64,000 nucleotides of DNA from Kitasatospora albolonga (GTDB taxonomy: Bacteria > Actinomycetota > Actinomycetes > Streptomycetales > Streptomycetaceae): positions 5,760,001 to 5,824,000 of the forward strand of contig CP020563.1 of the NCBI GenBank assembly GCA_002082585.1. Reading direction: 5' to 3'. Positions 3,109 to 60,602 of this stretch are shown here, piece after piece. Position numbers and translations under genes: made by a program. The notes under the pieces are model-generated. The model saw only the letters and a list, made by a program, of their open reading frames with translations. It ran no database searches and was not told where the DNA came from. Numbering within the stretch: the stretch's first letter is position 1; each line of letters begins with the position of its first letter.

Positions 3109-4500
3109 ATGAGCCGCTCCGCACACCCCGCCGGTCCCCGTCACGCCGACGTCCTGACCGAGGGGCACTACTCCGCCCCCGCCGCCGACCTCAACGTCCT
3201 CGACGAGAAGGTCTGGGCCCGTACCGTCACCCGCGACGCGGACGGCGCCCTCACCGTCGGCGGCATCGCCGTCGCCCGGCTCGCCGAGGAGTTCGGCACC
3301 CCCGCCTACATCCTCGACGAGACCGACTTCCGGGCCCGCTGCCGGGCCTGGGCCGACGCCTTCGGGCCGGACGCCGATGTCTTCTACGCCGGGAAGGCAT
3401 TCCTCTCCCGCGCCGTCGTGCGCTGGCTCAAGGAGGAGGGGCTGAACCTCGATGTGTGCTCCGGGGGAGAGCTGACCACCGCTCTCGACGCCGGTATGCC
3501 CGCCGAGCGCATCGCCTTCCACGGCAACAACAAGTCCGTCGCCGAGATCGAGCGGGCCGTCCGGGCCGGGGTCGGGCGCATCGTGCTCGACTCCTTCCAG
3601 GAGATCGTCCGCGTCGCCCACATCGCCCAGCGCCACGGCATCCGCCAGCGCGTCCAGATCCGGGTCACCGTCGGGGTCGAGGCGCACACCCACGAGTTCA
3701 TCGCCACCGCGCACGAGGACCAGAAGTTCGGCATCGCGCTCGCCGGGGGGCAGGCCGCCGAAGCCGTGCGCCGGGCGCTCTCGCTCGACGGGCTCGACCT
3801 CATCGGCATCCACTCGCACATCGGCTCGCAGATCTTCGACATGGCCGGCTTCGAGGTCTCCGCCCGGCGCGTGGTGCAGCTGCTCGCCGAGGTCCGTGAC
3901 GAGCACGGCGTCGAACTGCCCGAGATCGACCTCGGCGGCGGCCTCGGCATCGCGTACACCTCCGAGGACGACCCCCGCGAGCCGCACGAGATCGCCAAGG
4001 CGCTCAGCGACATCGTCACCCGCGAGTGCGAGGCCGCGAAGCTGCGTACGCCCCGTATCTCCGTCGAGCCCGGGCGGGCCATCGTCGGGCCCACCGCGTT
4101 CACCCTGTACGAGGTCGGAACGGTCAAGCCCCTCGAAGGGCTGCGGACCTATGTCAGCGTCGACGGCGGAATGTCGGACAATATTCGTACCGCGCTGTAC
4201 GACGCCGAGTACAGCGTGGCGCTCGTCTCGCGCACCTCGGATGCCGAGCCGATGCTCGTCCGGGTCGTCGGCAAGCACTGCGAGAGCGGGGACATCGTGG
4301 TCAAGGACGCGTTCCTCCCCGCCGACCTGGCACCCGGGGACCTGATCGCGGTCCCCGCCACCGGCGCGTACTGCCGCTCGATGGCGAGCAACTACAACCA
4401 CGCCCTGCGCCCCCCGGTCGTCGCCGTCCGGGACGGCGGGGCACGCGTCATCGTCCGGCGCGAGACGGAGGAAGATCTCCTGCGTCTCGATGTCGGCTGA
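3109..4500 (+). CDS. lysA: diaminopimelate decarboxylase
   Basis: Pyridoxal-phosphate enzyme of 463 residues that decarboxylates meso-diaminopimelate to L-lysine, the last step of lysine synthesis. It has the alanine-racemase-like barrel with the PLP lysine in YAGKAF (K96), HSHIGSQI for the phosphate and substrate region, [14 protein letters not shown], and the C-terminal catalytic Cys/Tyr region around KHCESGD and [14 protein letters not shown]. Length is normal for actinobacteria. It begins 33 bp after the ArgRS-like gene and is followed by a hairpin, then hom. This placement of lysA before hom-thrC-thrB is the usual actinobacterial arrangement and groups both branches of aspartate metabolism. 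Confidence 0.97.
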
Positions 4501-46836: not shown

Positions 46837-49800
46837 CTACCTCCCCGACGACTTGCCCCCCGACCGCGAGCCCGCCGCCGCGGGGGCCTTGGAGCCGCCC
46901 GGCGGTCCGTCCGCCGGTTTGCCGCCCCCGCCGGGAGTCTCGAAAGACTCCAACGCTTCCAGCACGTCCTGGACACGGGAGATCTCCGTATTGATGTCCT
47001 CGCGCCTGCGCACCAGGACCTCCAGCTCCCGTTTCCCCTCGGCGACCGTCTTCTCGGCCTCGGCCTGCGCGTCGGCCCGCAGCTTCTCCGCCTCGCGGAT
47101 CAGCCCGGCCTTCTTGGCCTCGGCCTCCTTCAGCAGCGACTCGGCCCGTTTCACCGCGGCGATCCGGACCTTGCTCGCCTCCGAATTGGCCTCCGCCAGC
47201 AGCTCCTTGGCCTTCGCCTCGGCCTCGTCGCGCTGCTCGGTCGCCGCCTTCATCAGGTTGTCGACGCGCTCCCCGGCGGTCTTCATCTGCTCCGACGTCT
47301 CCCGGCGGGCCCGCTCGTGGAGCTCCTCGATCTCGCTCTCCAGCCGGGCCCGCAGCTCCTGCGCCCGCTCCCGGATCTGGGTCGCGTCGCGCCGGGCGCC
47401 GACCAGCAGCTCATCGGCGTCCGTACGGGCGCGCTCCACCAGGGTGTTGCCCTCGACGGTCGCCTCCGAGGTGATCCGCTGGGCCTCCTTGCGGGCCGCG
47501 CCGACCATGGTGTCGGCCTGCCCCTCCGCCTCGGTGGCCGTACGCAGCGCCTCTTCCCGCGCCTTGTTGATGAGCTGGTCCGCCTGCTCCGCCGCGTCCG
47601 CCCGGCGCTTGGCCGCCGCCTCGCGGGCCTCGTCCAGCACCCGGTCCGCCTCCTGGCGGGCCTCCGAACGCAGCTCCTCCGCCGCCGACTCCGCTTCCGT
47701 ACGCAGCCGTTCGGCCTCCTCGACCGTACGGGCGGCGCTCTCCTGCGCGGAGCCGAGCAGCTCGGCCGCCTCGGCGCGCAGCCGCTCCGCCTCCTGGCCC
47801 GCCTCGGCTAGCAGCCGTTCGGCCTGCTCGTTCGCGTCCTTGCGGCGCCGGTTGGCCTCCGTGGTCGCCTCGACGACGAGCTGCTCGGAGGAGTGGGCCG
47901 CCTCGTTGCGGATGCGCTCGCTCTCGGCCGTCGACTCGGCCATGAGCCGGTCCGACTGGGCCGCCGCCTCCGAACGGATGCGGTTGGCGTCCTGCCGGGC
48001 CTCGGCACGGGCCTTCGACGCGTCCTGCTCCGCCGAGGCGAGGGCGTCGGACGCCTCCGTACGCATCCGCTGGCTGTACTCCGAGGTGTCCGCGCGCAGC
48101 CGCTCCGACTCGGCGATCGCCTCGGAGACCGTCCGCTCGGCCAGCGCCTTCGCGGCCTCCGCCTCCTCGTGGGCCTCCCGCCGGAGCCGGTCCGCCTCCT
48201 CGCCCGCCTCCCGCCGCAGCCGCACCGCGTCCTCGGAGGCGCGGTCCCGCTCGGCGTGCGCGTCGGCGCGGACCCGGTCCGCCTCCTCCTGCGCCTCGGT
48301 ACGGGTGCGCTCCGCGACATGCTCGGCCGCCGAACGCAGCCCGGCGATCTCCTCCTCGGCCTGCTCCTGGAGCCCGGAGACGGAGTCCCGCACCTGCTGG
48401 GCGGTCTGCTCGGCCGCCGAGACCAGCTCGGTCGCCCGGGCGTCCGCCTCCTCGACCAGCCGCTGCGCCTCGGCCTGCGCCTCCTCCACCCGCTTGCGGG
48501 CGGAGGCGAGCAGCTCCTCGCTCTGCTCGCGGGCCCGCTCGCGCTCCTGCCCCGCTTCCGTACGGGCGGCGCCGAGGATCTCCTCGGCCTCCCGGCGGCG
48601 GCGCGTGGCCTCCTCCTGGGCGGCCTCCAGCGCCTCGGCGGCCTCGGCCTCCACCCGCTCGGCGGCGGCTGCGGCCTCCGCGCGCACCCGGTCGGCGGTC
48701 TCCTTGGCCTCGGTCTTCAGCCGCTCGGCCTCGGCGGCGGCCTCGCTCCGCAGCCGTACGGCGATGTTCTCGCCCTCGGCACGGGCCTGCGAGGCGTCCG
48801 CCGCAGCCTCGTCACGCAGCCGCTCCGCCTCCGCCCCGGCCTGCTCGGTCAGCGCCCGGGCCCGCTCGGCGGCCTCGGCGCGCTGCCGCTCCGCCTCCTC
48901 GGCCGTCTCGCGGCGGATGCGCTCCGCCTCCGTACGGGCCTCGCCGAGCGCCTCCTCGGCGGCGGCGAGCCGGGCCTCGGCCTCGGTGTGCAGCCGCTCC
49001 AGCTCATCGGCGGCCTCGGCCTGCCGGGCCGCCACCGCGCGCTCGGTCTCCTCGCGCAGCCCGGCCGCCGCCCGCTCGGCCTCGGCCGTGGTGGCCTCCG
49101 CCTGCTCCTCGGCCTCCGCCCGCAGCTTCTCGGCCTCGGCGCGGGTGCGCTCGAGCGTCTCCTCGGCCTGCTTGCGCAGGGTGGCCGCGCGCTCGGCGGC
49201 CTCGGCGCGGATGCGCTCGCTCTCGCCGTTCGCCTTGGTGCGCAGCTCGTCCGCGTCGGAGCGCGCCTCGGTCAGCAGCTCCTCCGCCTTGCGGGCGCCC
49301 TCCTCCAGCTGCTGGACCGCCTCGCGGCGGGCCTCGCCCCGGATGCGCTCACCCTCCGCGACCGCCTCGGAGCGCAGCTGCTCGGCCTCGCCGCGCAGCC
49401 GACGGGCCTCCTCCTGGAGCTCGACCGTCTTGGCCCGGTACTCCTTGGTGTCGTCCTTGGCCGCGCCCTTGAGCTCGTCCGCCTGCTCGGCGGCCTCGCC
49501 GCGCAGCCGGTCCGCCTCGGCCTCCGCCTCGCGGCGGATGCGCTCGGCCTCCTCGCTCGCCGCCTTCGTCGTCGACCGGGCGTCCTCGGACGCCTTGGTG
49601 AGGACCTCCTCGGCGCTGCGGGCCGCCTTGGCGAGCTGGGCGGCGGCGTCCTCGGCGGCTGCCGTACGGGCCTTCTCGGCCGCCTCGGCGACCAGCCGGT
49701 CGGCCTCGGCACGGGCGTCGGCGAGGGCCTGCTCGGCCTCCTCCTTGAGCGCCTCGGCGCTCTTGGTGGCCTCGCCGACCAGCCGGGCGATCTCCGACTT

Positions 49801-50730
49801 GGCCGTACGGGTGCGCTGCTCGTTCTGCGACTCGGAGGCGGCCAGCTTCTTGGCCGCGGTCTCCTTTGCCTCGGCGAGGGTCTTCTCGGCCTCCAGCCGG
49901 GATTCCCGCAGCCGGGTCTCGGCCTCCTGGAGCCGCTGCTCGGCGGCCCGGTTCAGCTCGGCCGTCTGCTGGCGGGCCTGCGAGGTCTCCGCGGTGGTGC
50001 TGGAGCGCAGCTGCTCCGCGTGGCTGGTGGCCTCCTGGGCCTGCGCGGAGGCGGCGCCCAGCATGCGTTCGGCGTCCTTGCGGGCGCGCAGCAGGATCGC
50101 TTCCGCCTCGGCCCGGGCCGCCTCGGCCTCGGAGCCGACGCGCTGCCGGGTCTCCTCGGCCAGCCGGGCGGCCTCGGCGCGGGCGGCGGCGAGCGCCTGT
50201 TCGGCCTCGGCCCGGGACTCGTCCAGCAGCCTGCGCGCCTGCGATTCGGTGCGGGCCCGCAGCTGTTCGGCCCAGGCGACGTTCTCGTTGACGTGCGACT
50301 CGACGGTCTGCCGGCGCTCGGCCAGCTCCTGGTCGAGCTGCTGCCTGCGCTGGACGGCCTCGTTGTGCAACTCCGCCTGGAGGCGCGCCTGGTGCTCGGC
50401 GTGCTCCTGGAGGATGCGCTGTGTCTGGGCCCGCGCCTCGCGCAGCTCGCGCTCGGCGTCGCTGCGCAGCTGCTCGGCCTGCACCTGCGCGTTCCGCAGC
50501 AGCTGCTCGGCCTGGTAGCCCATGTCCGCGCTGTCGTACGCGGGACGGGTGGCCAGATTGCGCCGGGCCTCGTGCAGCTTGGCGCGCAAGACCTCGACCT
50601 GGTAACCGAGGTCCTCGGCGTGCTGGACGGCCTTCTCCCGGTCGGTCCTCAGCCGGGCCATCTCGGCTTCGAACCGCGAGAGATGGTCGTCTTCAGCTCG
50701 GTGGCTCTCCTGGCTTTCGTAGCCCCGCAC
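46837..50730 (-). CDS. scy: Scy, polarisome coiled-coil scaffold
   Basis: A 1297-residue protein, close to the 1326 of S. coelicolor Scy, that organises the tip-growth complex with DivIVA and FilP. Residues 1-60 hold a short coiled coil (AEMARLRTDREKAVQHAEDLG) comparable to DivIVA. Most of residues 80-1250 is one immense Ala/Glu/Arg coiled coil with recurring EEAERLRAEA-type units; the known family feature is a 51-residue hendecad-based repeat, and units such as AERIRREA and ADRLRAEA recur at about that distance. The end is a Gly/Pro/Ser/Lys-rich tail. The GTG start giving VRGYESQES matches the family. Codon repetition makes long spurious reading frames on the other strand. Confidence 0.94.
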   Translation of the reverse strand: MRGYESQESHRAEDDHLSRFEAEMARLRTDREKAVQHAEDLGYQVEVLRAKLHEARRNLATRPAYDSADMGYQAEQLLRNAQVQAEQLRSDAERELREARAQTQRILQEHAEHQARLQAELHNEAVQRRQQLDQELAERRQTVESHVNENVAWAEQLRARTESQARRLLDESRAEAEQALAAARAEAARLAEETRQRVGSEAEAARAEAEAILLRARKDAERMLGAASAQAQEATSHAEQLRSSTTAETSQARQQTAELNRAAEQRLQEAETRLRESRLEAEKTLAEAKETAAKKLAASESQNEQRTRTAKSEIARLVGEATKSAEALKEEAEQALADARAEADRLVAEAAEKARTAAAEDAAAQLAKAARSAEEVLTKASEDARSTTKAASEEAERIRREAEAEADRLRGEAAEQADELKGAAKDDTKEYRAKTVELQEEARRLRGEAEQLRSEAVAEGERIRGEARREAVQQLEEGARKAEELLTEARSDADELRTKANGESERIRAEAAERAATLRKQAEETLERTRAEAEKLRAEAEEQAEATTAEAERAAAGLREETERAVAARQAEAADELERLHTEAEARLAAAEEALGEARTEAERIRRETAEEAERQRAEAAERARALTEQAGAEAERLRDEAAADASQARAEGENIAVRLRSEAAAEAERLKTEAKETADRVRAEAAAAAERVEAEAAEALEAAQEEATRRRREAEEILGAARTEAGQERERAREQSEELLASARKRVEEAQAEAQRLVEEADARATELVSAAEQTAQQVRDSVSGLQEQAEEEIAGLRSAAEHVAERTRTEAQEEADRVRADAHAERDRASEDAVRLRREAGEEADRLRREAHEEAEAAKALAERTVSEAIAESERLRADTSEYSQRMRTEASDALASAEQDASKARAEARQDANRIRSEAAAQSDRLMAESTAESERIRNEAAHSSEQLVVEATTEANRRRKDANEQAERLLAEAGQEAERLRAEAAELLGSAQESAARTVEEAERLRTEAESAAEELRSEARQEADRVLDEAREAAAKRRADAAEQADQLINKAREEALRTATEAEGQADTMVGAARKEAQRITSEATVEGNTLVERARTDADELLVGARRDATQIRERAQELRARLESEIEELHERARRETSEQMKTAGERVDNLMKAATEQRDEAEAKAKELLAEANSEASKVRIAAVKRAESLLKEAEAKKAGLIREAEKLRADAQAEAEKTVAEGKRELEVLVRRREDINTEISRVQDVLEALESFETPGGGGKPADGPPGGSKAPAAAGSRSGGKSSGR

Positions 50731-50931
50731 TGCGCGGTCCCATCCTTCCCCGAGCTCAACTCTGTTCGAGCAGGGGAGACCCCAACCCTGGTCGCAACTG
50801 TCCACACGAGGACAGCTCGCCGACGAGCGGTCCCCAGGGAATGGTGACAGACAAACGACGAGGACGTGGTACGGCCCCGACCCGGCCCCGGCCCGGAACC
50901 GCCCACTCTACCGGGCCGGGTCTGCGCCGGG

Positions 50932-51360
50932 TCAGTGCTCCGGGTTGCTCGTGACCAGTTCGGTGAGGACGCCGTGGCAGTCCTTGGGGTGCAGGAACGT
51001 GATCCGGGACCCCATCGACCCCGTCCTGGGCTCGTCGTACAGCACACGGACGCCCTTCTCGCGGATGTCCGCGGCGTCCCCGTCGACGTCTTCTGTACCG
51101 AAGGCGATGTGGTGGACGCCTTCCCCGTTCTTTGCCAGCCACTTGCCCACGGCGGAGTCCTCCCGGGTGGGCTCCAGGAGCTGGAGGTAGGACGCCCCGC
51201 CGTCCGAGGTCCCGTTGATCTTGAGCATGGCCTCCCGGACGCCCTGCTCCTCGTTGATCTCGCTGTGGAACACCTCGAATCCGTACGTGGCACGGTAGAA
51301 CTCCACCGTCCTGTCCAGGTCGAAGCAGGCGATTCCGATGTGGTCGATGCGCGTCAGCAT
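50932..51360 (-). CDS. mce: methylmalonyl-CoA epimerase
   Basis: A 142-residue vicinal-oxygen-chelate fold enzyme that interconverts (2R)- and (2S)-methylmalonyl-CoA. Metal ligands are visible: His in RIDHIGIA, Gln in YLQLLEP, His in EGVHHIAFG and Glu in GVLTELV. It feeds the (2R) isomer to the B12-dependent mutase, and the (2S) isomer can serve polyketide synthesis. I start at MLTRIDHIG; an earlier in-frame ATG would add 12 residues not seen in the family. It is divergent from the thiolase gene. Confidence 0.95.
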   Translation of the reverse strand: MLTRIDHIGIACFDLDRTVEFYRATYGFEVFHSEINEEQGVREAMLKINGTSDGGASYLQLLEPTREDSAVGKWLAKNGEGVHHIAFGTEDVDGDAADIREKGVRVLYDEPRTGSMGSRITFLHPKDCHGVLTELVTSNPEH

Positions 51361-51504
51361 GGTTTCAGCATGGCTCCGCGCCCCGGCCCCCGCCATGGTT
51401 ACGCAACGTGCGCGCCGTCACACCGGTAGCCGGATGACGGGCGCGGGAGCGCTCAGTACATTCAGGTAAACCCTCGTTCACATCCGACCCAAGGGGCCGT
51501 GCCC

Positions 51505-52710
51505 ATGCCAGCAACGACCGGTACCACCACCTCAGTGATCGTCGCGGGCGCCCGGACGCCCATGGGCCGTCTCCTCGGCTCGCTCAAGAGCTTCTCCGGG
51601 GCCGACCTCGGCGGGGTCGCGATCAAGGCGGCCCTGGACCGGGCCGGCATCGGCGGCGACCAGGTGCAGTACGTGATCATGGGCCAGGTGCTCCAGGCCG
51701 GCGCGGGCCAGATCCCCGCCCGCCAGGCCGCCGTCAAGGCGGGCATCCCGATGAACGTGCCCGCGCTCACCATCAACAAGGTCTGTCTCTCCGGGCTCGA
51801 CGCCATCGCGCTGGCCGACCAGCTCATCCGTGCCGGGGAGTTCGACGTTGTGGTCGCGGGCGGCCAGGAGTCCATGACCAACGCCCCGCACCTGCTCCCC
51901 AAGTCCCGCGAGGGGTACAGGTACGGCGCGATCGAGATGCTCGACTCGATGGCGTACGACGGTCTCACCGACGCGTACGAGAACATCCCGATGGGCGAGT
52001 CCACCGAGAAGCACAACGGCCGCCTCGGCCTGGACCGCGCCGCCCAGGACGAGATCGGCGCCCTCTCCCACCAGCGGGCCGCCGCCGCGCAGAAGAACGG
52101 CGTCTTCGAGGCCGAGATCACCCCGGTCGAGATCCCGCAGCGCAAGGGCGAGCCGGTGCTCTTCGCCCAGGACGAGGGCATCCGCCCCGAGACCACGGTC
52201 GAGTCGCTCGGCAAGCTGCGCCCCGCCTTCGCCAAGGACGGCACGATCACCGCGGGCACCTCCTCGCAGATCTCCGACGGCGCCGCCGCCGTCGTCGTCA
52301 TGAGCAAGGCCAAGGCGCAGGAGCTGGGCCTCGACTGGATCGCCGAGATCGGCGCCCACGGAAACGTCGCGGGCCCCGACAACTCCCTCCAGTCGCAGCC
52401 CTCCAACGCGATCCGGCACGCGCTGAAGAAGGACGGCCTGACCGTCGACGACCTCGACCTGATCGAGATCAACGAGGCGTTCGCCGCCGTCGCCGTCCAG
52501 TCCATGAAGGACCTGGGCGTCACTCCGGACAAGGTCAACGTCAACGGCGGCGCCATCGCGCTCGGCCACCCCATCGGCATGTCCGGCGCCCGGGTCGTCC
52601 TGCACCTGGCCCTGGAGCTGAAGCGGCGCGGCGGCGGCACGGGCGCGGCGGCGCTGTGCGGGGGCGGCGGCCAGGGCGACGCGTTGATCATCCGCGTCCC
52701 GGGCAAGTAA
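51505..52710 (+). CDS. acetyl-CoA C-acetyltransferase
   Basis: A 401-residue biosynthetic thiolase condensing two acetyl-CoA to acetoacetyl-CoA, or the reverse. The nucleophile is C94 in [10 protein letters not shown]; the His is in [23 protein letters not shown], and the second Cys is in [10 protein letters not shown]. The ATG chosen is eight bases after AAGGGG; a GTG two codons earlier is too close to that site. TACATT at 51457-51462 is a possible -10. meaB follows 55 bp downstream in the same direction. Confidence 0.95.
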
Positions 52711-52765
52711 CACCGTACGGATACGCCGTACGTAGACGAGGCAAGGCGAGAACGGAGCGGTGAAC

Positions 52766-53728
52766 GTGGACGTGGACGTCCCCACGCTGGTCGAGCAGGC
52801 GCGAGCAGGCAGGCCGCGTGCGGTGGCCCGGCTGATCTCGCTGGTGGAGGGGGCGTCCCCGCAGCTGCGCGAGGTGATGGCGGCACTGGCCCCGCTGGCG
52901 GGCCACGCCTACGTCGTCGGGCTCACGGGCTCGCCGGGCGTCGGCAAGTCCACCTCCACGTCCGCTCTGGTCTCCGCCTACCGCCGGGCGGGCAAGCGGG
53001 TCGGCGTCCTCGCCGTCGACCCGTCCTCCCCGTTCTCCGGCGGCGCCCTGCTCGGCGACCGGGTCCGGATGTCGGACCACGCGTCCGACCCCGGCGTCTA
53101 CATCCGCTCCATGGCCACCCGGGGCCACCTGGGCGGCCTCGCCTGGTCGGCCCCGCAGGCGATCCGGGTCCTGGACGCGGCGGGCTGCGACGTGGTCCTG
53201 GTCGAGACGGTGGGCGTCGGCCAGTCCGAGGTGGAGATCGCCTCCCAGGCCGACACCTCCGTGGTGCTGCTCGCCCCCGGCATGGGCGACGGCATCCAGG
53301 CGGCCAAGGCCGGAATCCTGGAGATCGGCGATGTGTACGTGGTCAACAAGGCCGACCGCGACGGCGCCGACGCCACCGCCCGCGAGCTGAACCACATGCT
53401 GGGCCTCGGAGAGTCCCGCGCCCCCGGCGACTGGCGCCCCCCGATCGTGAAGACGGTCGCGGCCCGGGGCGAGGGCATCGACGAGGTGGTCGAGGCGCTG
53501 GAGAAGCACCGCGCCTGGATGGAGGAGCACGGCGTCCTCGCCGCCCGCCGTACGGCCCGCGCCTCCCACGAGGTCGAGACGATCGCCGTCACGGCCCTCC
53601 GCGAACGCATCGCCGACCTGCGCGGCGACCGCCGCCTGAACGCCCTGGCGGAGCGGATCGTGGCGGGGAGCCTGGACCCGTACGCGGCGGCCGATGAGCT
53701 GGTGGCGGGGCTGACGGGGGAGAGGTGA
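52766..53728 (+). CDS. meaB: MeaB, GTPase chaperone of methylmalonyl-CoA mutase
   Basis: A 320-residue G3E-family GTPase that guards loading of adenosylcobalamin on to the mutase and lets damaged cofactor out. Walker A GSPGVGKS at residues 55-62, DPSSPFSGGALLGDRVRM switch, ETVGVGQSE, and NKADRDGADA for guanine specificity; the C-terminal helices form the dimer. The GTG two codons earlier is only two bases from GGAG, so I use the next one. It is grouped with mce and a thiolase, consistent with the ethylmalonyl/methylmalonyl-CoA route. Confidence 0.94.
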   Translation: MDVDVPTLVEQARAGRPRAVARLISLVEGASPQLREVMAALAPLAGHAYVVGLTGSPGVGKSTSTSALVSAYRRAGKRVGVLAVDPSSPFSGGALLGDRVRMSDHASDPGVYIRSMATRGHLGGLAWSAPQAIRVLDAAGCDVVLVETVGVGQSEVEIASQADTSVVLLAPGMGDGIQAAKAGILEIGDVYVVNKADRDGADATARELNHMLGLGESRAPGDWRPPIVKTVAARGEGIDEVVEALEKHRAWMEEHGVLAARRTARASHEVETIAVTALRERIADLRGDRRLNALAERIVAGSLDPYAAADELVAGLTGER

Positions 53729-53813
53729 GGAGCTCCCGCACGCGCGCTTGACGCTTTTAACTTCTGCTCTTCGTCCGAGGGTTGCTTCCTCAGCCGTCGG
53801 TGCCGAGCGCCGA

Positions 53814-53847
53814 ACGGCCCCGCACCGCCGCTGCGGTACGGGGCCGT
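53814..53847. terminator. terminator between meaB and the PepSY gene
   Basis: Outer arms ACGGCCCCG/CGGGGCCGT and inner arms ACCGC/GCGGT around CGCT. It lies between convergent genes. Confidence 0.75.
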
Positions 53848-53874
53848 GCCGCCCAGGACGCTCCGGGCGGCGGG

Positions 53875-54573
53875 TCAGTCGTCGTCGCCGTCGCGGTCGT
53901 CGTCCCGGTCGTCGTCACCGTCGTCGTCGCGGTCCACCGTGACCTTGCCGGTCTTGGCGTCGACCTTCAGCTCGTGCTGCTTGCCGTCCTTGCCGGTGAT
54001 GTCGACGTCCCAGCGCAGGACACTGCCCCGGCGGCCGTTGTCGTCATCGTCATCGTCGTCGTCCAGGTCGATCGACGTGATGCGGCCCGGCGCGGTCTTC
54101 AGCGCCGCGTCCGCCGCCGCGTTCAGGGTGACGGCGGACGAGCGGGGCGCGTGGCGGTCGCGGTCGTCGTTGTCGTCGTCCTGGCGGGTCTTCAGGACCT
54201 TGCCGGTGGTGGCGTCCACCGTCACGTCGTGCCAGACCTTGTCGGAGCCGTACACGTCGAGCTCCCAGACCGTACGGCCGTCGCGGTCGTCATCGTCGTC
54301 GTCCAGCTCGGCCTCGGTGACCGTGCCCGGGACGCTCTTCAGCGCCGCCGCCACCGCCCGGTCCAGCGTGACGGTGGTGGTCCCGGTGGCGGGGGAGCGG
54401 TCGTCGTCCCGGTCGTCGTTCCGGTCGTCCGTGTCCTTGCCGGTCGTCGTCGGCTGCTGCGTCGTCGTGGCCGGGCGGCGGTCGTCGCCGTCCGCGAAGG
54501 CGACGGTGGCGGCGGCCGTGCCGCCGATCAGGACGGCCGCGGTGACGGCGGCGATGGTGACGTTGCGCTTCAT
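53875..54573 (-). CDS. secreted double-PepSY protein with poly-Asp segments
   Basis: A 232-residue exported protein. The signal peptide is KR plus a hydrophobic stretch to AFADGD (cleavage after about residue 27). Two PepSY domains follow at about 66-133 and 146-214, each with the pattern VTLxxAVxAAL..PGxI and WxVDVxxxDGKxHxVxVDAxTGKV. Asp runs occur at 50-58, 91-96, 171-178 and 216-232, with Arg between. PepSY modules inhibit proteases or bind ligands at the cell surface; the Asp runs suggest cation binding, which is inference. It is divergent from a two-component system, with a dyad and repeats in the 117-bp gap, so it is a likely target of that regulator. Confidence 0.9.
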   Translation of the reverse strand: MKRNVTIAAVTAAVLIGGTAAATVAFADGDDRRPATTTQQPTTTGKDTDDRNDDRDDDRSPATGTTTVTLDRAVAAALKSVPGTVTEAELDDDDDDRDGRTVWELDVYGSDKVWHDVTVDATTGKVLKTRQDDDNDDRDRHAPRSSAVTLNAAADAALKTAPGRITSIDLDDDDDDDDNGRRGSVLRWDVDITGKDGKQHELKVDAKTGKVTVDRDDDGDDDRDDDRDGDDD

Positions 54574-54630
54574 GAGGTTCCTCCCCGAGAGCTGCTGTGC
54601 TTCGACGGGTTCCACACTGCCGGGGGCTTG

Positions 54631-54671
54631 CTGAACGCAGCCTGAAGCCACCTGAAGGCGTCTTCAGGTGG
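54631..54671. promoter_or_regulatory. candidate OmpR-type operator between the PepSY gene and the regulator gene
   Basis: Three CTGAA elements begin at 54631, 54642 and 54652, that is at 10-11 bp steps as OmpR-class dimers prefer. They run into a perfect inverted repeat CCACCTGAAG-GCGT-CTTCAGGTGG (54648-54671). The site ends 20 bp before the regulator start and 58 bp from the PepSY start, so it could control both directions. Confidence 0.6.
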
Positions 54672-54690
54672 AGTTTGCGAGGCTGTGCGC

Positions 54691-55353
54691 ATGCGCCTGT
54701 TGATCGTGGAGGACGAGAAGCGTCTCGCGGTGTCCCTCGCCCGGGGACTGACCGCCGAGGGCTTCGCCGTGGATGTCGTGCACGACGGGCTCGAAGGGCT
54801 CCACCGGGCGGGTGAGGGCGGCTACGACCTGGTGATCCTCGACATCATGCTGCCCGGCATGAACGGCTACCGGGTCTGCGCCGCCCTCCGCGCCGCCGGG
54901 CACGAGGTGCCGATCCTCATGCTGACCGCCAAGGACGGCGAGTACGACGAGGCCGAGGGGCTCGACACCGGCGCGGACGACTACCTGACCAAGCCCTTCA
55001 GCTACGTCGTCCTGGTCGCCCGGGTCCGCGCCCTGCTGCGCCGACGCGGCGCCGGGACCGCCGCGCCCGTGCTGACCGTCGGCACCCTCCGGATCGACAC
55101 CGCCGCCCGCCGCGTCCACCGGGGCGAGGACGAATACGCGCTCACCGCCAAGGAGTTCGCGGTCCTGGAGCAACTCGCCCTGCGCGCCGGGCAGGTGGTC
55201 AGCAAGGCGGAGATCCTGGAGCACGTCTGGGACTTCGCCTACGACGGCGACCCGAACATCGTGGAGGTCTACATCTCCACCCTGCGCCGCAAGTTGGGCG
55301 CCGCTTCCATCCGTACGGTGCGTGGCGCAGGCTACCGGCTGGAGGCGGGATGA
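54691..55353 (+). CDS. OmpR/PhoB-family response regulator
   Basis: A 220-residue regulator. Receiver: VEDE near residue 8, phospho-Asp in LVILDIMLPG at about residue 52, LTAKD and YLTKPF. The winged helix at about 125-220 ends in VYISTLRRKLG and IRTVRGAGYRL. An in-frame GTG two codons earlier is possible; no strong ribosome site precedes either, so a leaderless or weakly initiated start is likely. It overlaps the kinase gene by 4 bp. Confidence 0.93.
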   Translation: MRLLIVEDEKRLAVSLARGLTAEGFAVDVVHDGLEGLHRAGEGGYDLVILDIMLPGMNGYRVCAALRAAGHEVPILMLTAKDGEYDEAEGLDTGADDYLTKPFSYVVLVARVRALLRRRGAGTAAPVLTVGTLRIDTAARRVHRGEDEYALTAKEFAVLEQLALRAGQVVSKAEILEHVWDFAYDGDPNIVEVYISTLRRKLGAASIRTVRGAGYRLEAG

Positions 55354-56795
55354 GGTCCGTACGGGCCAGGGCCGCCATCGGCGCCACCCTGGTCGTCGCC
55401 GTCGCCCTCGTCGCCGCCGGGCTGGCCGTCCTCCTCGTCCTGCGGGACAACCTTATCGACCAGGCGGACCTCCAGGCGGAGGTGGCCGCCCGGGAGGTGG
55501 CCGGGCAGCTGGCCCTGGACACGGCGTACGAGGACCTGGACCTGGACGACGAGGAGGACCACCCGGTCCAGGTGACCGACGAGGAGGGGCGGGTGGTGTT
55601 CGTGTCGAAGGGGCTCCAGGCCGTCTCCGGGACCCGTTCGCCGGGCGTCAGCCCCGTACCCTCCGCCTCGGTCGGCGCCGCCCCGTCACCCGGGGACGAC
55701 GACGATGACGATGACGACGATGACGATGACCGGCGGCCCGGCCGGGGCGAGGTCTCCTCCGACGACCCGGACTTCTCCGACGGCACCGCCACCGTCAACG
55801 GCAAGCACGCCGACTACCGGTTCGCCGCCGTCGAGGCGACCACCCCCGCCGGACTCACCCTGACCGTCCACGCGGGCGCCCCGCTCGCCGCCGAGCAGGA
55901 GGCGGTCGGCACCGTACGCGGGGCCATGCTGATGGGCCTCCCGCTCCTGCTGGCCGTCGTCGCCGCCGTGACCTGGCTGGTGACCCGGCGCGCGCTGCGG
56001 CCCGTCGAGGGCATCCGCCGCGAGATGGCCGCGATCACCGCGTCCGAGGACCTGGCCCGCCGCGTCCCGGAGCCCGGCTCGCGCGACGAGATCGCGGCGC
56101 TGGCCCGGACCACCAACGAGACGCTCACCGTCCTGGAGGCGTCCGTGGAGCGGCAGCGCCGGTTCGTCGCGGACGCCTCGCACGAGCTCCGCTCCCCGAT
56201 CGCCTCGCTCCGCACCCAGCTGGAGGTGGCCGAGGCCCACCCGGAGCTGCTGGACCTCCCGGGCGCGGTCGCCGACACCGTACGCCTCCAGGTGCTGGCG
56301 GCGGACCTGCTGCTGCTGGCCCGGCTGGACGCGGGGGAGAAGCCGGGGGCCGCCCGGGTGGAGGTGGGGGCGCTGGTGCGCGAGGAGGTGTCCCAGCGGG
56401 CCGGGGACCGGGTTCCGGTGTCGGTGGAGGTGCCGGAGGGCGGGGCGTTCGAGGTGAACGGCTCGCGCGGGCAGCTGGCCCGGGTGGTCGGCAACCTGCT
56501 GGACAACGCCCAGCGGCACACCGAGGGGCGCGTGGCCGTCTCCGTGGCGGCCGACGGCTCCGGGGTGCGGGTGGAGGTCCGCGACGACGGGGCGGGCGTC
56601 CCGGAGGACGAGCGGGAGCGGATCTTCGAACGGTTCGTCCGGCTCGACGACGCCCGCAGCCGCGACGACGGCGGCGCGGGGCTCGGCCTGGCCATCGCCC
56701 GGGACGTGGCCACGCGCCACGGCGGGACGCTCACGGTCCACCGGGCCCCGGAGGGCGGCGCGGCGTTCCGGCTGTGGCTGCCCCGCGCGGCCTGA
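55350..56795 (+). CDS. sensor histidine kinase with poly-Asp sensor loop
   Basis: A 481-residue kinase. TM1 spans about residues 8-31 and TM2 about 190-212. The extracellular part of about 155 residues has an acidic start (DLDLDDEED at 62-70) and then an uninterrupted run of 12 Asp (116-127) followed by RRPGRG. HAMP is at about 213-265, the phospho-His is H278 in ADASHELRSP, and the HATPase has NLLDNAQRHT, DDGAGVP and GAGLGLAI. The Asp run, the likeness to the divergent PepSY protein, and their shared control region suggest that it senses a cation or a cationic peptide; this is inference. It is coupled to the regulator gene by an ATGA overlap. Confidence 0.92.
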   Translation: MRSVRARAAIGATLVVAVALVAAGLAVLLVLRDNLIDQADLQAEVAAREVAGQLALDTAYEDLDLDDEEDHPVQVTDEEGRVVFVSKGLQAVSGTRSPGVSPVPSASVGAAPSPGDDDDDDDDDDDDRRPGRGEVSSDDPDFSDGTATVNGKHADYRFAAVEATTPAGLTLTVHAGAPLAAEQEAVGTVRGAMLMGLPLLLAVVAAVTWLVTRRALRPVEGIRREMAAITASEDLARRVPEPGSRDEIAALARTTNETLTVLEASVERQRRFVADASHELRSPIASLRTQLEVAEAHPELLDLPGAVADTVRLQVLAADLLLLARLDAGEKPGAARVEVGALVREEVSQRAGDRVPVSVEVPEGGAFEVNGSRGQLARVVGNLLDNAQRHTEGRVAVSVAADGSGVRVEVRDDGAGVPEDERERIFERFVRLDDARSRDDGGAGLGLAIARDVATRHGGTLTVHRAPEGGAAFRLWLPRAA

Positions 56796-56937
56796 CCGTA
56801 CGCGAAGCGCCGTACGCCGAGCCGACGCGTACGCGAGACGTACGCGGCCGTACGCCGCCCCGACCGTACGGAGACGGGACCGCGCGGCCGTGGGGACCGG
56901 TGCCGCGAGCCCCCGGGCACCGGTCAGCCGTCCTGGG

Positions 56938-57414
56938 TCACGGCTTCCCGCGCCGCCCCCGCAGATGCTCCGCGATCGGCGTCAGCGCCGCGTGCAGATC
57001 CGTGAGAGCCTCGGGGGAGAGCAGGTCCATGAAGTGCTTGCGCACCGAGTCCACGTGGTGCGGGGCGACCTTCCGCATGGTCTCCGAGCCCAGCTCGGTG
57101 AGGACCGCGTACAGTCCCCGCCGGTCCGACTCGCAGTGGGTGCGGCGGACCAGGCCCGCCGTCTCCATCCGGGTGATCTGGTGCGAGAGCCGGCTCTTGG
57201 ACTGGAGCGTGGCGGCGGCGAGGTCGCTCATCCGCATCCGCTGGTCCTCGGACTCGGAGAGGTTGACCAGGATCTCGTAGTCGTTCATGGTCAGGCCGAA
57301 CGGCTGGAGGTCCTTCTCCAGCTGGTGCATCAGCAGCCTGCTGACGTCCAGGTGGGTGCGCCAGGCGCACTGCTCCGTGTCGCTCAGCCAGCGGGTGGCC
57401 GTCTCGGTCTCCAT
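56938..57414 (-). CDS. absC: MarR-family regulator AbsC
   Basis: A 158-residue winged-helix dimer. The recognition region is MSDLAAATLQSKSRLSHQITRMETAGLVRR (read as two halves), followed by the SDRRGLYAVLTELG wing. Length and sequence agree with S. coelicolor AbsC, which controls antibiotic and zincophore-type clusters in a zinc-related manner; the name is from recognition and synteny. A TAGAAT box six bases before the ATG suggests a leaderless mRNA. The 142 bp between the sensor kinase gene and absC holds GTACGC-type repeats and nothing else. Confidence 0.88.
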   Translation of the reverse strand: METETATRWLSDTEQCAWRTHLDVSRLLMHQLEKDLQPFGLTMNDYEILVNLSESEDQRMRMSDLAAATLQSKSRLSHQITRMETAGLVRRTHCESDRRGLYAVLTELGSETMRKVAPHHVDSVRKHFMDLLSPEALTDLHAALTPIAEHLRGRRGKP

Positions 57415-57420
57415 ATATGG

Positions 57421-57434
57421 ATTCTACCTAAGAA
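57421..57434 (-). promoter_or_regulatory. absC -10 box with overlapping inverted repeat
   Basis: On the - strand TTCTTAGGTAGAAT contains TTCT-TAGGT-AGAA, and its last six bases TAGAAT are a consensus -10. The ATG begins seven bases beyond the box, so transcription and translation start together. A dimer bound to the repeat would block the promoter, which fits autorepression by a MarR protein. Confidence 0.6.
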
Positions 57435-57578
57435 GTTGAAAGCCGGACGAAATTAACGGGTGTGACATCAGCGGGTGTGGCGGCGGGCACCCTGGGGCCG
57501 CCGGAGTGCCGGCGGACTCGTTGGCAAGGACCGACGGCTGGGCGCAGACGTTCGACGTCACACTCCGCAGCCTACCGC

Positions 57579-58331
57579 TCACAAGCCGAAGCGGCGCTGG
57601 AGGTCCCCCAGCTGGCCGGGCATGCGCGGCGTGGAACCGCCGCCCGGGACACCCGGTTCGCTCGGCACCGTACCCGTCGACTGCTCCGCCATCAGCGCCT
57701 CGCTGGACTGCATCAGCACCGTGCCCGCCCCTACGAACTCGAACTGGTGCTCCTCGCCCGAGGTGCCGCCGATGCCCGTCAGTGACCGGATTCCGCCCAT
57801 GACGCCCGTCATGTAACCGTGGTCGTAGTGGTGGCACGGCGAGGGGCAGTCCGCCCACCCCACCAGCGCCTGCGGGTCGACCCGCAGCGGCGGCTCCATG
57901 AAGACCACGGGCCCGTTCGACGCGGCCACGAACTTCCCCGTACCGATCAGCGTCACGAACCCGGGCACGATCGACTGCTTCAGGGAGAGCGCCGGGTCGA
58001 ACGCCAGCAGGTTCCCCGAGCGGATCGTCAGGTTCCCCTCGTCCAGGTCGAAGGAGTTCACGTCGAAGGCCCGGTCCGCCAGCAGCATTTTCCCGCTGCC
58101 CTCGGCCACCACCCAGTCGCTCGCGTGCAGCGGCGAATGGAAGCTGGAGCGCACCAGCCGCTCGAACCGGCCGTGCCCGATGCCGTCGAAGTTGATCTGC
58201 CCGTAGTAGGCGATCATCTTCCCCTTCTGGAGGAACCACCGGCTCCCCTTGAGCTCCACGCAGAAGGTGTAGGAGTTGACGTTGTCGTCCGACGGCAGCG
58301 TCATCGGATCGAAGATCACAGGGGTGCTCAC
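57579..58331 (-). CDS. AIM24-family protein (third of three)
   Basis: A 250-residue member of the AIM24 (formerly DUF124) beta-sandwich family. Segments FLQKGKMIAYYGQINFDG, GSGKMLLAD, and LTIRSGNLLAFDP recur in the two upstream paralogues. It is the most divergent: it has a CHHYDHGY segment with a Cys-His-His cluster near 185 and a Pro/Gly/Ser-rich C-terminal tail of about 45 residues. The GTG start overlaps the stop of a 24-codon ORF as GTGA, after GAGGAG. Family function is poorly known: mitochondrial biogenesis in yeast, unknown in bacteria. Confidence 0.9.
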   Translation of the reverse strand: MSTPVIFDPMTLPSDDNVNSYTFCVELKGSRWFLQKGKMIAYYGQINFDGIGHGRFERLVRSSFHSPLHASDWVVAEGSGKMLLADRAFDVNSFDLDEGNLTIRSGNLLAFDPALSLKQSIVPGFVTLIGTGKFVAASNGPVVFMEPPLRVDPQALVGWADCPSPCHHYDHGYMTGVMGGIRSLTGIGGTSGEEHQFEFVGAGTVLMQSSEALMAEQSTGTVPSEPGVPGGGSTPRMPGQLGDLQRRFGL

Positions 58332-58402
58332 GACTTCTCCTCGATCGGCTTCTTCTCCCCGAGGGGCACCGGCTTCTCCCCGGGGGCCACCGGCGCGCTC
58401 AC
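58328..58402 (-). CDS. 24-codon ORF threaded between two AIM24 genes
   Basis: GTG start and TGA stop each form a GTGA overlap with the neighbours: the start overlaps the stop of the second AIM24 gene, and the stop overlaps the start of the third. The peptide is Lys/Pro/Glu-rich with two repeated units, APGEKPVPLGEKKPIEE, and no hydrophobic segment. It could be a real small protein, or an element that carries ribosomes from one AIM24 gene to the next. Composition is normal for the genome (GC-rich third positions). No homologue is known to me. Confidence 0.5.
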   Translation of the reverse strand: MSAPVAPGEKPVPLGEKKPIEEKS

Positions 58403-59049
58403 AGCTTCTCCTCCGATGCCTGGACGTACACCGCGCCGCTCCCGCTCAGCTCCAGCTGGAACGCCTCGCCGGAGCCGCGCCCCACCATGTCCCGCCAGCC
58501 GAGCGCGGTGGAGAGCTTGTTGCGGACATTCCCGTGGTGGGCGACGTACGCCTGCGGGTCGACATGGATGTCCCGGCCCGGGACGATCGGCAGCTCGATC
58601 ACCCCGCCGTGCGCCATCACCGCGACCGCACCATGGCCCGTGAGCGTCGTCGTGAACAGCCCCTGGCCGGTCACCTGGCCGCGGACCATGCCCATCACCC
58701 CGCCCTGCGAGCCCATGAACATCGTGCCCTGCTGGAGAGAGCCGTCGAAGGCGAGGAGCCGGTCGGCCTCCACGTACAGGGTGTCGCCCGCCAGGTTGAT
58801 CACCTGGATGTGGTGGCCGCCGTGGCCGAACAGCACCGTGCCCGACCCCTCCACCGTCATCAGCGGCGTCGCCTCGCCCGCCACCCGGCGGCCGATCATC
58901 GAGGCGAAGCCGCCCTGACCGCCCTGGATGTTCGGGGTGAAGGACACCTCGCCCCGGTAGGCCAGCATCGCGCCGCGCTGGCTGAACAGCCGCTGGCCCG
59001 GAGACACCACGGCCTCGACCATCTTGGAGTTGATCTCCCGGAACGGCAT
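58399..59049 (-). CDS. AIM24-family protein (second of three)
   Basis: A 216-residue AIM24 protein. SQRGAMLAYRGEVSF, GSGTVLFGHGGHHIQVINL, LYVEADRLLAFDGSL and a C-terminal GSGEAFQLELSGSGAVYVQASE define the repeated beta elements. It shares the stop-start TGATG with the first gene, so translation is coupled. The protein has no signal or helix and should be cytoplasmic, or membrane-associated through its fold. Confidence 0.92.
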   Translation of the reverse strand: MPFREINSKMVEAVVSPGQRLFSQRGAMLAYRGEVSFTPNIQGGQGGFASMIGRRVAGEATPLMTVEGSGTVLFGHGGHHIQVINLAGDTLYVEADRLLAFDGSLQQGTMFMGSQGGVMGMVRGQVTGQGLFTTTLTGHGAVAVMAHGGVIELPIVPGRDIHVDPQAYVAHHGNVRNKLSTALGWRDMVGRGSGEAFQLELSGSGAVYVQASEEKL

Positions 59050-59687
59050 CAGACATCGCCCCCGATGGTGTTGCGCTCGCTCGGCTGTACGTAGACCAGC
59101 CCGTCGCCCTCGAACCGCATCTGGAACGCCTCGCCCGAGCCCTCGCCCATCAGCGTCCGGAAGTTCACCCCGCTCTGGAGCTGCTGGCGCAGACTGCCCT
59201 GGTGGGCGATGTACGCGCCGGGGTCGACCATCAGCGGGTACTGCGGGGTCACCCGCAGCAGCACCGCCTCGCCCTCCGACATGATCGCCGCCTGGCCGGT
59301 GCCCTCCACCGTGGTGGTGAACAGCCCGTTGCCGCTCGCCCCGCCGCGCAAGCCGGTGAACGTGGTGCCCGTGCGCAGCCCGGAGTCGGTGGCCAGCAGA
59401 TTGCTCGCCTCCACGTACAGCTTGTCGCCGTGCAGCGCGACCAGGTTGATCTCGCTCGCCCGGTCGGCGAAGTAGCAGGTGCCCTGCCCGGACACCTCCA
59501 TCACGGCCATCTGCTCGCCGGTCAGCCGGCGGGTCACCATCCCGCGGAGCCCCTCACCGCCGCCGGTCATCTTCTTGAAGGTCATCCGGCCGTCGTACGC
59601 GACCATCGAACCGTTCTTCGCCTTGACGGCATCGCCCGTCAGATCGACGGCGAGCGTCTTGCTGCCTTGGAGTCGGAACATCGCCAC
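59049..59687 (-). CDS. AIM24-family protein (first of three)
   Basis: A 212-residue AIM24 protein and first gene of the operon. AKNGSMVAYDGRMTFKKM, GQGTCYFADRASEINLVAL, LYVEASNLLATDSGL and GEGSGEAFQMRFEGDGLVYVQPSE line up with the second copy over nearly the whole length, pointing to duplication. ATG start; the promoter should lie in the 274-bp spacer shared with the divergent DUF3817 gene. Confidence 0.92.
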   Translation of the reverse strand: MAMFRLQGSKTLAVDLTGDAVKAKNGSMVAYDGRMTFKKMTGGGEGLRGMVTRRLTGEQMAVMEVSGQGTCYFADRASEINLVALHGDKLYVEASNLLATDSGLRTGTTFTGLRGGASGNGLFTTTVEGTGQAAIMSEGEAVLLRVTPQYPLMVDPGAYIAHQGSLRQQLQSGVNFRTLMGEGSGEAFQMRFEGDGLVYVQPSERNTIGGDV

Positions 59688-59758
59688 GCGACGAAGGTAG
59701 CCGCCCGCCCGCCGCCCGGACCAGGTCCTACGGAACCGTTACGTCCCTGATGCTCCCC

Positions 59759-59808
59759 TGATGCGCACCTGGACCGGTCCTGGTGATGCGCACCCGCACC
59801 GGCCCTGA
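59759..59808. repeat. 25-bp tandem duplication in the AIM24-DUF3817 divergent spacer
   Basis: Units 59759-59783 and 59784-59808 agree at 21 of 25 positions (TGATGCGCACCNGNACCGGNCCTGR). A shorter TGATATGCGGTGATACGCG follows. It may carry regulator sites for either operon; nothing else in the spacer is clear. Confidence 0.75.
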
Positions 59809-59961
59809 TATGCGGTGATACGCGCGCCCGCGCGGAGGACGGCCCCCGGCGCCGGGGGCGTACCGGCGCGATGCCACAATGGGGGCGCGGCTTGTGCTCG
59901 CGTTCACAAGCCCGTACGGCCCCTCCCGACCGCACGACCCCCTCCCACCGAAGGTGCCCCT

Positions 59962-60312
59962 GTGGACATCAAGACCGCTTCCGCCCTGCACCGGCTGCGC
60001 CTCATCTCCCTCCCCGAGGCGCTCTCCTTCCCGGCGCTGCTCATTTTCGGCTCGCTGCTCATGCGGGTGTCGGACATCGACTTCCTCATGCGGCCCCTCG
60101 GCATCATCCACGGCATCCTCTTCACGATCTACGTGGTGTTCCTGCTGGATGTGTGGGTCAAGGCCAAGTGGCCCCTCAAGCGTGTCGCGCTCTTCTTCCT
60201 CCTCGCCGTCGTCCCCTTCGGCGGCCTCTACGGCGACAAGCTGCTGAAGCAGTACGAGGCCGACGGCGTCATCGCCGCCCGCGCCCGCCGCGAGGGCACG
60301 GTCAGCGCATGA
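59962..60312 (+). CDS. DUF3817 family membrane protein
   Basis: A 116-residue protein with three helices (about 14-34, 45-66 and 72-94) and the family pattern [20 protein letters not shown] and [13 protein letters not shown]. The C-terminus is charged (ARARREG). GTG start, eight bases after CGAAGG. Function unknown. Its last four bases overlap the thiamine-binding gene, so the two are cotranslated. Confidence 0.88.
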
Positions 60313-60602
60313 TCGTCGCGTTCTCGGTCTCCCCGCTCGGCGTCGGTGAGGACGTCGGAGAGTACGTGGCCGACGCCGTGCGGGTCGTACGGGAGTCGGG
60401 CCTGCCCAACCGGACCGACGCCATGTTCACCTCCGTCGAGGGGGAGTGGGACGAGGTCATGGACGTCGTCAAGCGCGCCGTGGCCGCCGTCGAGGCCCGC
60501 GCGGGACGCGTCTCCCTGGTACTGAAGGCCGACATCCGGCCCGGTGTCACCGACGGTCTGACCTCGAAGGTCGAGACCGTGGAGCGCCATCTCGCGGGCT
60601 GA
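60309..60602 (+). CDS. MTH1187-family thiamine-binding protein
   Basis: A 97-residue ferredoxin-like protein: [11 protein letters not shown], then [16 protein letters not shown], the [17 protein letters not shown] helix and a final [13 protein letters not shown] strand. The family binds thiamine or related pyrimidines and is small and cytoplasmic. It is translationally coupled to the DUF3817 membrane gene, which may point to a joint role at the membrane, for example in thiamine handling; this is inference. Confidence 0.9.

Follow-up and report, generated by a model that had tools for sequence, protein, structure and literature searches.

Within a 64,000-nt stretch of the 8.03-Mb chromosome of Kitasatospora albolonga (CP020563.1; hereafter the window), the gene of an exported, Asp-rich protein with two PepSY domains stands back to back with the genes of a response regulator and a sensor histidine kinase, and the 117-bp gap between them (54574-54690) holds a single putative operator. 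We infer, with moderate confidence and from sequence comparison, that the locus is an autoregulated, cation-responsive circuit that makes an acidic, probably cation-binding, exported protein. The PepSY gene (53875-54573, minus strand; product of 232 aa) matches Pfam PepSY in two stretches (E 4e-27) and most likely starts with the ATG at 54573, which is preceded by a GGAGG ribosome site, rather than with the GTG upstream. The OmpR/PhoB-type regulator (54691-55353, plus strand; Pfam Response_reg and Trans_reg_C) and the kinase (55350-56795, plus strand; HAMP, HisKA, and HATPase_c) are followed by a convergent MarR-type regulator gene (56938-57414, minus strand), the product of which matches PDB 3zmd (E 2e-84). 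This entry is named only 'putative transcriptional regulator', and we take it to be AbsC of Streptomyces coelicolor. In what follows, L-numbers label loci that were extracted with their flanks and G-numbers label genomes, while published statements are given as far as the accessible parts of the sources carry them.

With the PepSY protein as query, a match was found in 116 of 150 genomes of the genus, and 89 of the matching loci (L034-L122, one per genome) were taken with flanks. The divergent PepSY/regulator/kinase triple is present in 82 of these 89 loci, the other seven having no regulator or kinase match, and an AbsC-like gene is present in 80. Kinase identity amounts to 48-92% in 84 other loci with the divergent triple, and the names of the nearest kinases, which include those of S. 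bacillaris, S. cyaneofuscatus, and S. anulatus, place the chromosome in Streptomyces. In L079, the AbsC protein is 99.4% identical to 3zmd, so that this locus can represent SCO5402-SCO5405; the regulators of L079 and the window share 86% identity, the PepSY gene of L079 is likewise divergent, and its operator carries one mismatch. The window shows the arrangement of SCO5402-SCO5405, namely a regulator-kinase pair beside AbsC and opposite a two-PepSY gene, and on the basis of homology and gene order the pair is the orthologue of S. coelicolor RapA1 (SCO5403) and RapA2 (SCO5404), with the PepSY protein and the MarR-type regulator corresponding to SCO5402 and AbsC (SCO5405), respectively. RapA1/RapA2 is reported to act positively on actinorhodin and coelimycin via actII-ORF4 and kasO/cpkO; deletion of rapA1/A2 lowers actII-ORF4, the genes are induced early under added salt, and the target genes were called unknown in 2026. 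One paper lists RapA1/A2 under metal homeostasis, with the entry 'copper homeostasis?', and the neighbouring AbsC under zinc homeostasis. SCO5402 is listed as a two-PepSY protein, and the accessible text of the SCO5402-SCO5405 literature holds no description of its control. An earlier note on this DNA, made from the letters alone, knew of no described function for the locus, a statement that gives way to the identification of the pair as RapA1/RapA2 and to the fact that a PepSY gene beside a two-component system is a published type of module.

The operator is the feature that joins the two transcription units. CTGAA occurs in the gap at 54631, 54642, and 54652, in steps of 11 and 10, as the earlier note had seen, and the intergenic regions of relatives hold a common pattern, CTGAA-N6-CTGAA-N5-CTGAA-N6-TTCAG, composed of three direct CTGAA and one inverted TTCAG. 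The window copy (54631-54667, plus strand) matches it without mismatch. A perfect inverted repeat with 10-bp arms (54648-54671), to which the earlier note had also drawn attention, is present in the window as CCACCTGAAG (54648-54657) and CTTCAGGTGG (54662-54671) with a spacing of 4 nt, but its full arms are not conserved among relatives, the intergenic regions of which keep only the CTGAAG/CTTCAG core. The dyad was discarded as the functional unit, since only the CTGAA/TTCAG half-sites stay constant and the bases beside them in the arms differ between loci.

At up to one mismatch, the operator was found in 113 of the 150 genus genomes and the reversed control pattern in none, with a rough chance expectation of 0.001 per genome for the operator; a shortened form occurs in one place in each of four genomes, again with no control hit. 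Among 84 orthologous loci, counted after one duplicate had been dropped, the operator is exact in 59, has one mismatch in 23, and is absent in two (six mismatches). In the window's own genome it occupies one place even at up to three mismatches, where the reversed control likewise gives one hit, which argues against direct control of many genes. When only the triple repeat was sought, with up to two mismatches allowed, eight places emerged in this genome (control, two), namely the operator, five copies of one identical sequence that probably lie in ribosomal RNA operons, and two others; all except the operator carry two mismatches.

The spacing of the operator from both genes is nearly invariant. 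In the 82 loci that have the operator, which are related by descent, a hexamer of the form xAnnnT starts exactly 11 nt beyond it, toward the PepSY gene in 100% of cases and toward the regulator gene in 99%. The window counterparts, CAGTGT (54614-54619, minus strand) and GAGGCT (54679-54684, plus strand), are predicted -10 elements and would act as the promoters of the PepSY and regulator genes, respectively. In 65 of the 82 loci, 23 nt separate the regulator ATG from the operator, implying a leaderless regulator transcript that begins at the ATG at 54691. PhoB boxes show a similar arrangement, with a distance of about 11 nt from the end of the half-sites to the -10.

The association of the operator with PepSY genes extends beyond the genus. 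In a class-wide scan of 296 genomes from 114 genera, it was found in 41 genomes of 11 genera (44 places, no control hits), and 23 of the 41 genomes belong to the window's genus. Thirty of the 44 places were inspected with flanks, and L171 was cut by a contig end. A PepSY protein lies on the expected side in 25 of the remaining 29 according to Pfam or BLAST (E 1e-4 or better), including L170 and L175, which fall below the curated Pfam cut-off, and L132 and L141, for which L074 and L161 from the same genomes served as the basis. Gene order varies, being divergent in Streptomyces and tandem elsewhere, with regulator, kinase, operator, and PepSY gene in succession (L170, L175, L178, L179, and L181). 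Operator and PepSY gene also occur with no kinase or regulator match nearby, in the 8-kb loci L164, L166, and L169 and, within 7 kb on each side, in L180. At L164 (around 4001), an exact operator stands between a PepSY lipoprotein-like gene and a gene that looks like one for an extracytoplasmic function (ECF) sigma factor, with no kinase match in 8 kb.

One genus carries the operator in 12 of 58 genomes, and in 12 of 12 it follows the kinase gene and precedes the gene of a protein with a membrane span, in the tandem order regulator, kinase, operator, target. Pfam recognises this target type poorly: of six tested, L208 had no PepSY match, and the other five (E 1e-4 to 0.03) did not reach the cut-off. 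The product of L203 is UipA, with 185 of 188 residues (98%) identical to PDB 7ath, and the window locus and uipA thereby share one operator with 0 mismatches in both (L203/L209 and the window). The regulator of the UipA locus (L209) is 59% identical to that of the window, and the two have in common the sequence GDPNIVEVY, which presumably lies where the recognition helix is expected. UipA is reported to bind uranyl through a negatively charged face, while according to a 2022 review UipRS had yet to be shown to take part in uranium sensing; no paper on UipRS was among the open-licence matches listed, so later work on this system may exist.

Both the kinase and the PepSY protein of the window are rich in Asp. 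Residues 116-127 of the kinase are 12 consecutive Asp (codons 55695-55730, plus strand), and the PepSY protein contains 57 Asp in 232 aa, with D6 at residues 91-96, D8 at 171-178 (codons 54040-54063, minus strand), and six further D3 runs, which bears out what had been read from the sequence about the sensor loop and about the Asp-rich runs around the two PepSY domains. GAC and GAT codons are mixed within the runs. A (GAY)8 search of the whole genome gave three distinct places and no control hits, two of the three being in the kinase and PepSY genes. The third (L125 1483-1965, near 1403781) encodes the C-terminal tail DEDDDDDDDD of a small protein that we take to be Asp23-like.

Among relatives, the acidity of loops and PepSY proteins is conserved, but the length of the runs is not. 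The longest kinase run is 2 to 11 among 120 near relatives (88 of them have 4 or 5, and two have 11) and the longest loop run is 1 to 15 among 84 loops of wider relatives (at least 8 in seven, the window's included), a spread that rules out conservation of run length. These 84 loops have a median net charge of -24, with one extreme at +5, and the target proteins have one of -31, with 1 of 89 not negative; this set of 89 systems still includes one duplicate (L033/L036) and four looser relatives (L161-L163 and L168). The earlier note had staked its reading on Asp runs in close homologues of both proteins. Long runs are indeed lost in most of these, but loops and PepSY proteins stay acidic.

Acidity of the loop and of the target also co-varies. 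In 92 of the 98 systems that remained once L153 (target gene misread) and L033 (duplicate of L036) had been set aside, the acidic fraction (D+E) of loop and target gave a Spearman coefficient of 0.70 and, by independent contrasts, r 0.48 (p 1e-6, n=92). For net charge, contrasts gave r 0.53 (p 4e-8, n=92), for Asp alone r 0.38, and for the longest run r 0.27, and the composition controls (Ala r 0.09, Gly r 0.19, His r 0.04, all by contrasts) did not reach significance at p 0.05. Without a side clade, the acidity contrasts still yielded r 0.48 and 0.52 (n=82). Short uncharged loops are paired with non-acidic targets in L150-L160, according to a loop/target comparison of 90 of 100 systems (ten were dropped because the kinase was cut off or the loop end was not found), and in L162 an Asp-poor loop is paired with a His-rich target. 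Like charges on both partners suggest that the two have a cationic ligand in common rather than touch each other through these segments.

The structure model of the kinase is weak, with a mean predicted local distance difference test score (pLDDT) of 61.7 and values under 50 for residues 98-121 and 123-131, so that the 12-Asp run falls in a part of the sensor region modelled with low confidence. In the model of the PepSY protein, the folded parts of the two domains are mostly above 90, and most of the N-terminal 65 residues are under 50. With Foldseek, a single hit reached E <= 0.001, namely 4exr, a lipoprotein of Clostridium, and a second Foldseek list names FoxB, 4exr, YpmB, YpeB, and UipA among others. 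PDB 9vy3, a 153-residue PepSY chain, matches the window protein at E 1e-14 by sequence and at 1e-17 as a profile, a link that does not extend to structure, as the chain is not among the 50 best structure matches of either Foldseek list; judging from the construct length and the molecule name, it is probably lanpepsy. Lanpepsy is reported to bind lanthanides and to have two PepSY domains.

We favour a circuit in which the RapA2-type kinase would meet a cationic ligand with its acidic extracytoplasmic loop and would thereupon phosphorylate the RapA1-type regulator; the likeliest signal is a hard metal ion (Fe3+, uranyl, or a rare earth) or high ionic strength. The regulator would then act at the single operator, with three half-sites directed toward the PepSY promoter and one toward its own putative leaderless promoter, the half-sites ending 11 nt before each predicted -10, and may activate both. 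The exported acidic two-PepSY protein would bind the same ligand and buffer it or keep it from the kinase, which would close a negative loop. A closed circuit around an acidic surface protein had already been proposed in the earlier note; the single operator, symmetric between the two promoters and conserved across the genus, lends support to the circuit, and the protein is well described as acidic and exported, given its signal-peptide-like start and PepSY domains. The cation sensor that the note had placed at the head of this circuit is plausible, as acidity co-varies and the operator fronts UipA, but the sign tests that bear on it are mostly weak. Effects on antibiotic genes are probably indirect, because the searches, within the mismatch limits applied, revealed no second operator. 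The S. coelicolor-like genome G136 likewise yielded no further copy within the limits used there, which speaks against a direct route to these genes.

Several observations weigh against the cation-responsive circuit. The literature search gave no binding, expression, or metal data for the locus. Sign tests on the contrasts were weak for acidity (51/89, p 0.20), net charge (52/89, p 0.14), and Asp (44/87, p 1.0), implying that large changes carry much of the correlation; for run length, the test gave 40/56 (p 0.002). Asp of the kinase core also correlates weakly with Asp of the PepSY protein (r 0.24, p 0.02), and the kinases beside UipA-type genes have no long Asp run. Moreover, the targets are not uniform. 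Twenty operator sites of the genus away from the main locus were inspected, and a PepSY protein scores above the Pfam cut-off in five (L161, L163, L164, L166, and L168) and weakly in L169, while 11 of the 20 (L150-L160) front a membrane-anchored, non-acidic target, of which three were tested and only that of L157 gave a weak PepSY match. These 11 sites belong to a related two-component system (regulator 65-68%, kinase 46-49% identity). Behind the operator of L162 lies a small His-rich exported protein without PepSY (4092-4448, plus strand), L165 (around 4001) has an exact operator with neither PepSY nor kinase genes beside it, possibly with a decayed target, and the target of L167 could not be assigned. 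The operators of L172-L174 precede exported proteins without PepSY that contain repeated DGKxYxNGKLVG-like units, L174 scoring above the cut-off of the copper protein CopK and L172 below it, and what stands on the expected side of L197 is just a protein related to the weak L155 type. The non-PepSY and non-acidic sites imply that the operator marks a wider family of exported targets, and acidic PepSY proteins are the commonest of these among the sites inspected.

Two side observations concern these sites. The system of L150-L160 combines an uncharged kinase loop with a target that bears His-containing patches. A second class of site, CTGAAC repeats ending in ATTCAG, was seen in L169, G001, G049, G063, and G097, and in L169 it precedes a weakly matching single-PepSY protein with no kinase genes nearby.

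The PepSY protein may instead bind the sensor domain of the kinase and bias it toward phosphatase activity, as DbfQ does with DbfS, so that metals or membrane state would act through this contact. PepSY proteins next to two-component systems are reported as a module enriched over 60-fold, in which DbfQ binds DbfS and acts on the kinase, and direct action of this kind also weighs against the cation-responsive circuit; the window has, as the published definition of the module asks, a PepSY-only protein within four genes of a kinase or regulator gene, here adjacent and divergent, and co-regulation from one operator fits such feedback. The like-charged, co-varying Asp-rich segments nevertheless argue against contact through those segments, and operator-PepSY loci without kinase genes nearby exist, so that we regard direct modulation as a serious but unlikely alternative to the shared-ligand circuit.

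Alternatively, the Asp runs could be near-neutral low-complexity sequence and the PepSY protein a protease inhibitor or cell-wall factor like SspA or YpeB, with the operator autoregulating a general stress system. The spread of run lengths among related kinases, the presence of YpmB and YpeB among the fold matches, and a report that SspA, also a two-PepSY protein, affects septation would all agree with this, but the codons within the runs are mixed, acidity persists and shows co-variation, and UipA too stands behind this operator, which leaves the idea improbable. At least two loci in the window's own genome match the PepSY protein, and the second (87750-88229; L002/L123), near the chromosome end and without the operator, may encode an SspA relative. 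PhoQ, which has an acidic patch, is the model for a further reading, in which the kinase would sense cationic antimicrobial peptides or membrane damage and the PepSY protein would shield the surface by trapping peptides. The acidic sensor loops and exported target, together with the reported repression of mycobacterial TcrA regulon genes by a cationic peptide, are compatible with it, but UipA, behind the same operator, is linked in print to uranium, and we consider this reading improbable.

As for the surroundings, no Rfam family was found at 50000-60500 at the gathering threshold. The PepSY gene is adjoined by what we take to be a thiolase gene and a MeaB-like GTPase gene. At lower coordinates, a gene at 46837-50805 (minus strand) encodes a coiled-coil-like protein of 1322 aa with much Ala, Glu, and Arg, presumably the cytoskeletal Scy of Streptomyces, and beyond AbsC three neighbouring genes at 57579-59687 (minus strand) encode similar products of 250, 216, and 212 aa, tandem paralogues that we assume to be AIM24-like.

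The operator names a probable direct target of RapA1/A2, the PepSY gene, and ties RapA1/A2 to UipA, a connection that was not found in the accessible open-licence literature. Scandium is reported to make S. coelicolor, S. antibioticus, and S. griseus yield more antibiotic and, in S. coelicolor, to raise actII-ORF4. It is a doubtful extrapolation, but RapA2-type kinases could be hard-cation sensors of Actinobacteria, linked through an ancient operator with UipRS, and could supply the missing receptor for rare-earth and salt switching of actII-ORF4 and of silent clusters. Were this so, the effect of scandium on actII-ORF4 and that of the rapA1/A2 deletion would share a cause.

The pair was not assigned to several described families, scoring under the curated cut-offs for CzcR/CopR (TIGR01387, 222.8 vs 279.2 bits) and CzcS/CopS (TIGR01386, 179.5 vs 292.55 bits) as well as for MtrA (183.6 vs 300), MtrB (188 vs 450), and CseB (197.1 vs 350). 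The window PepSY protein also stays below the cut-off of PepSY_MTB (NCBIfam NF051432; 33.7 of 60 bits), whereas the L180 protein exceeds it (153.2) and matches PDB 2kgy, which we take to be Rv0603. Proteins of this family are exported like that of the window, but 2kgy is a 102-residue chain and the window protein has two domains. According to one paper, the sensor genes of TcrA lie at Rv0600c-Rv0603c. Lanpepsy of Methylobacillus flagellatus is, as reported, likewise exported with two PepSY domains, to which the window protein adds Asp-rich linkers. In the DbfQRS-like modules of Vibrio and of Pseudomonas (PA2658/PA2659-BqsS), a PepSY gene similarly lies beside kinase and regulator genes; DbfQ, however, is small and has one domain, and its gene is predicted to share a transcript with that of the kinase, whereas the window protein is divergent, two-domain, and acidic and has its own predicted promoter.

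UipRS-UipA of Microbacterium has in common with the window an acidic tandem PepSY protein, a neighbouring two-component system, the operator, and the 59% identity of the regulators. It differs in its tandem order with the operator before uipA, in a kinase without a long Asp run, and in the long N-terminus of UipA before one membrane span, about 70 residues in L203 as judged by eye. The window protein, likewise judged by eye, begins with the signal-peptide-like MKRNVTIAAV...AFADGDD, so that it was not classed as a UipA-type single-pass protein with its N-terminus inside, and phmmer gave no UipA match for it. RapA1/RapA2 itself is described in print as regulating the ACT and CPK genes positively, and the accessible text describes no operator or PepSY target there. 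A module of PepSY protein and two-component system is thus a known type, and what is added here is its attachment, via a shared operator, to a named antibiotic regulator and to UipA.

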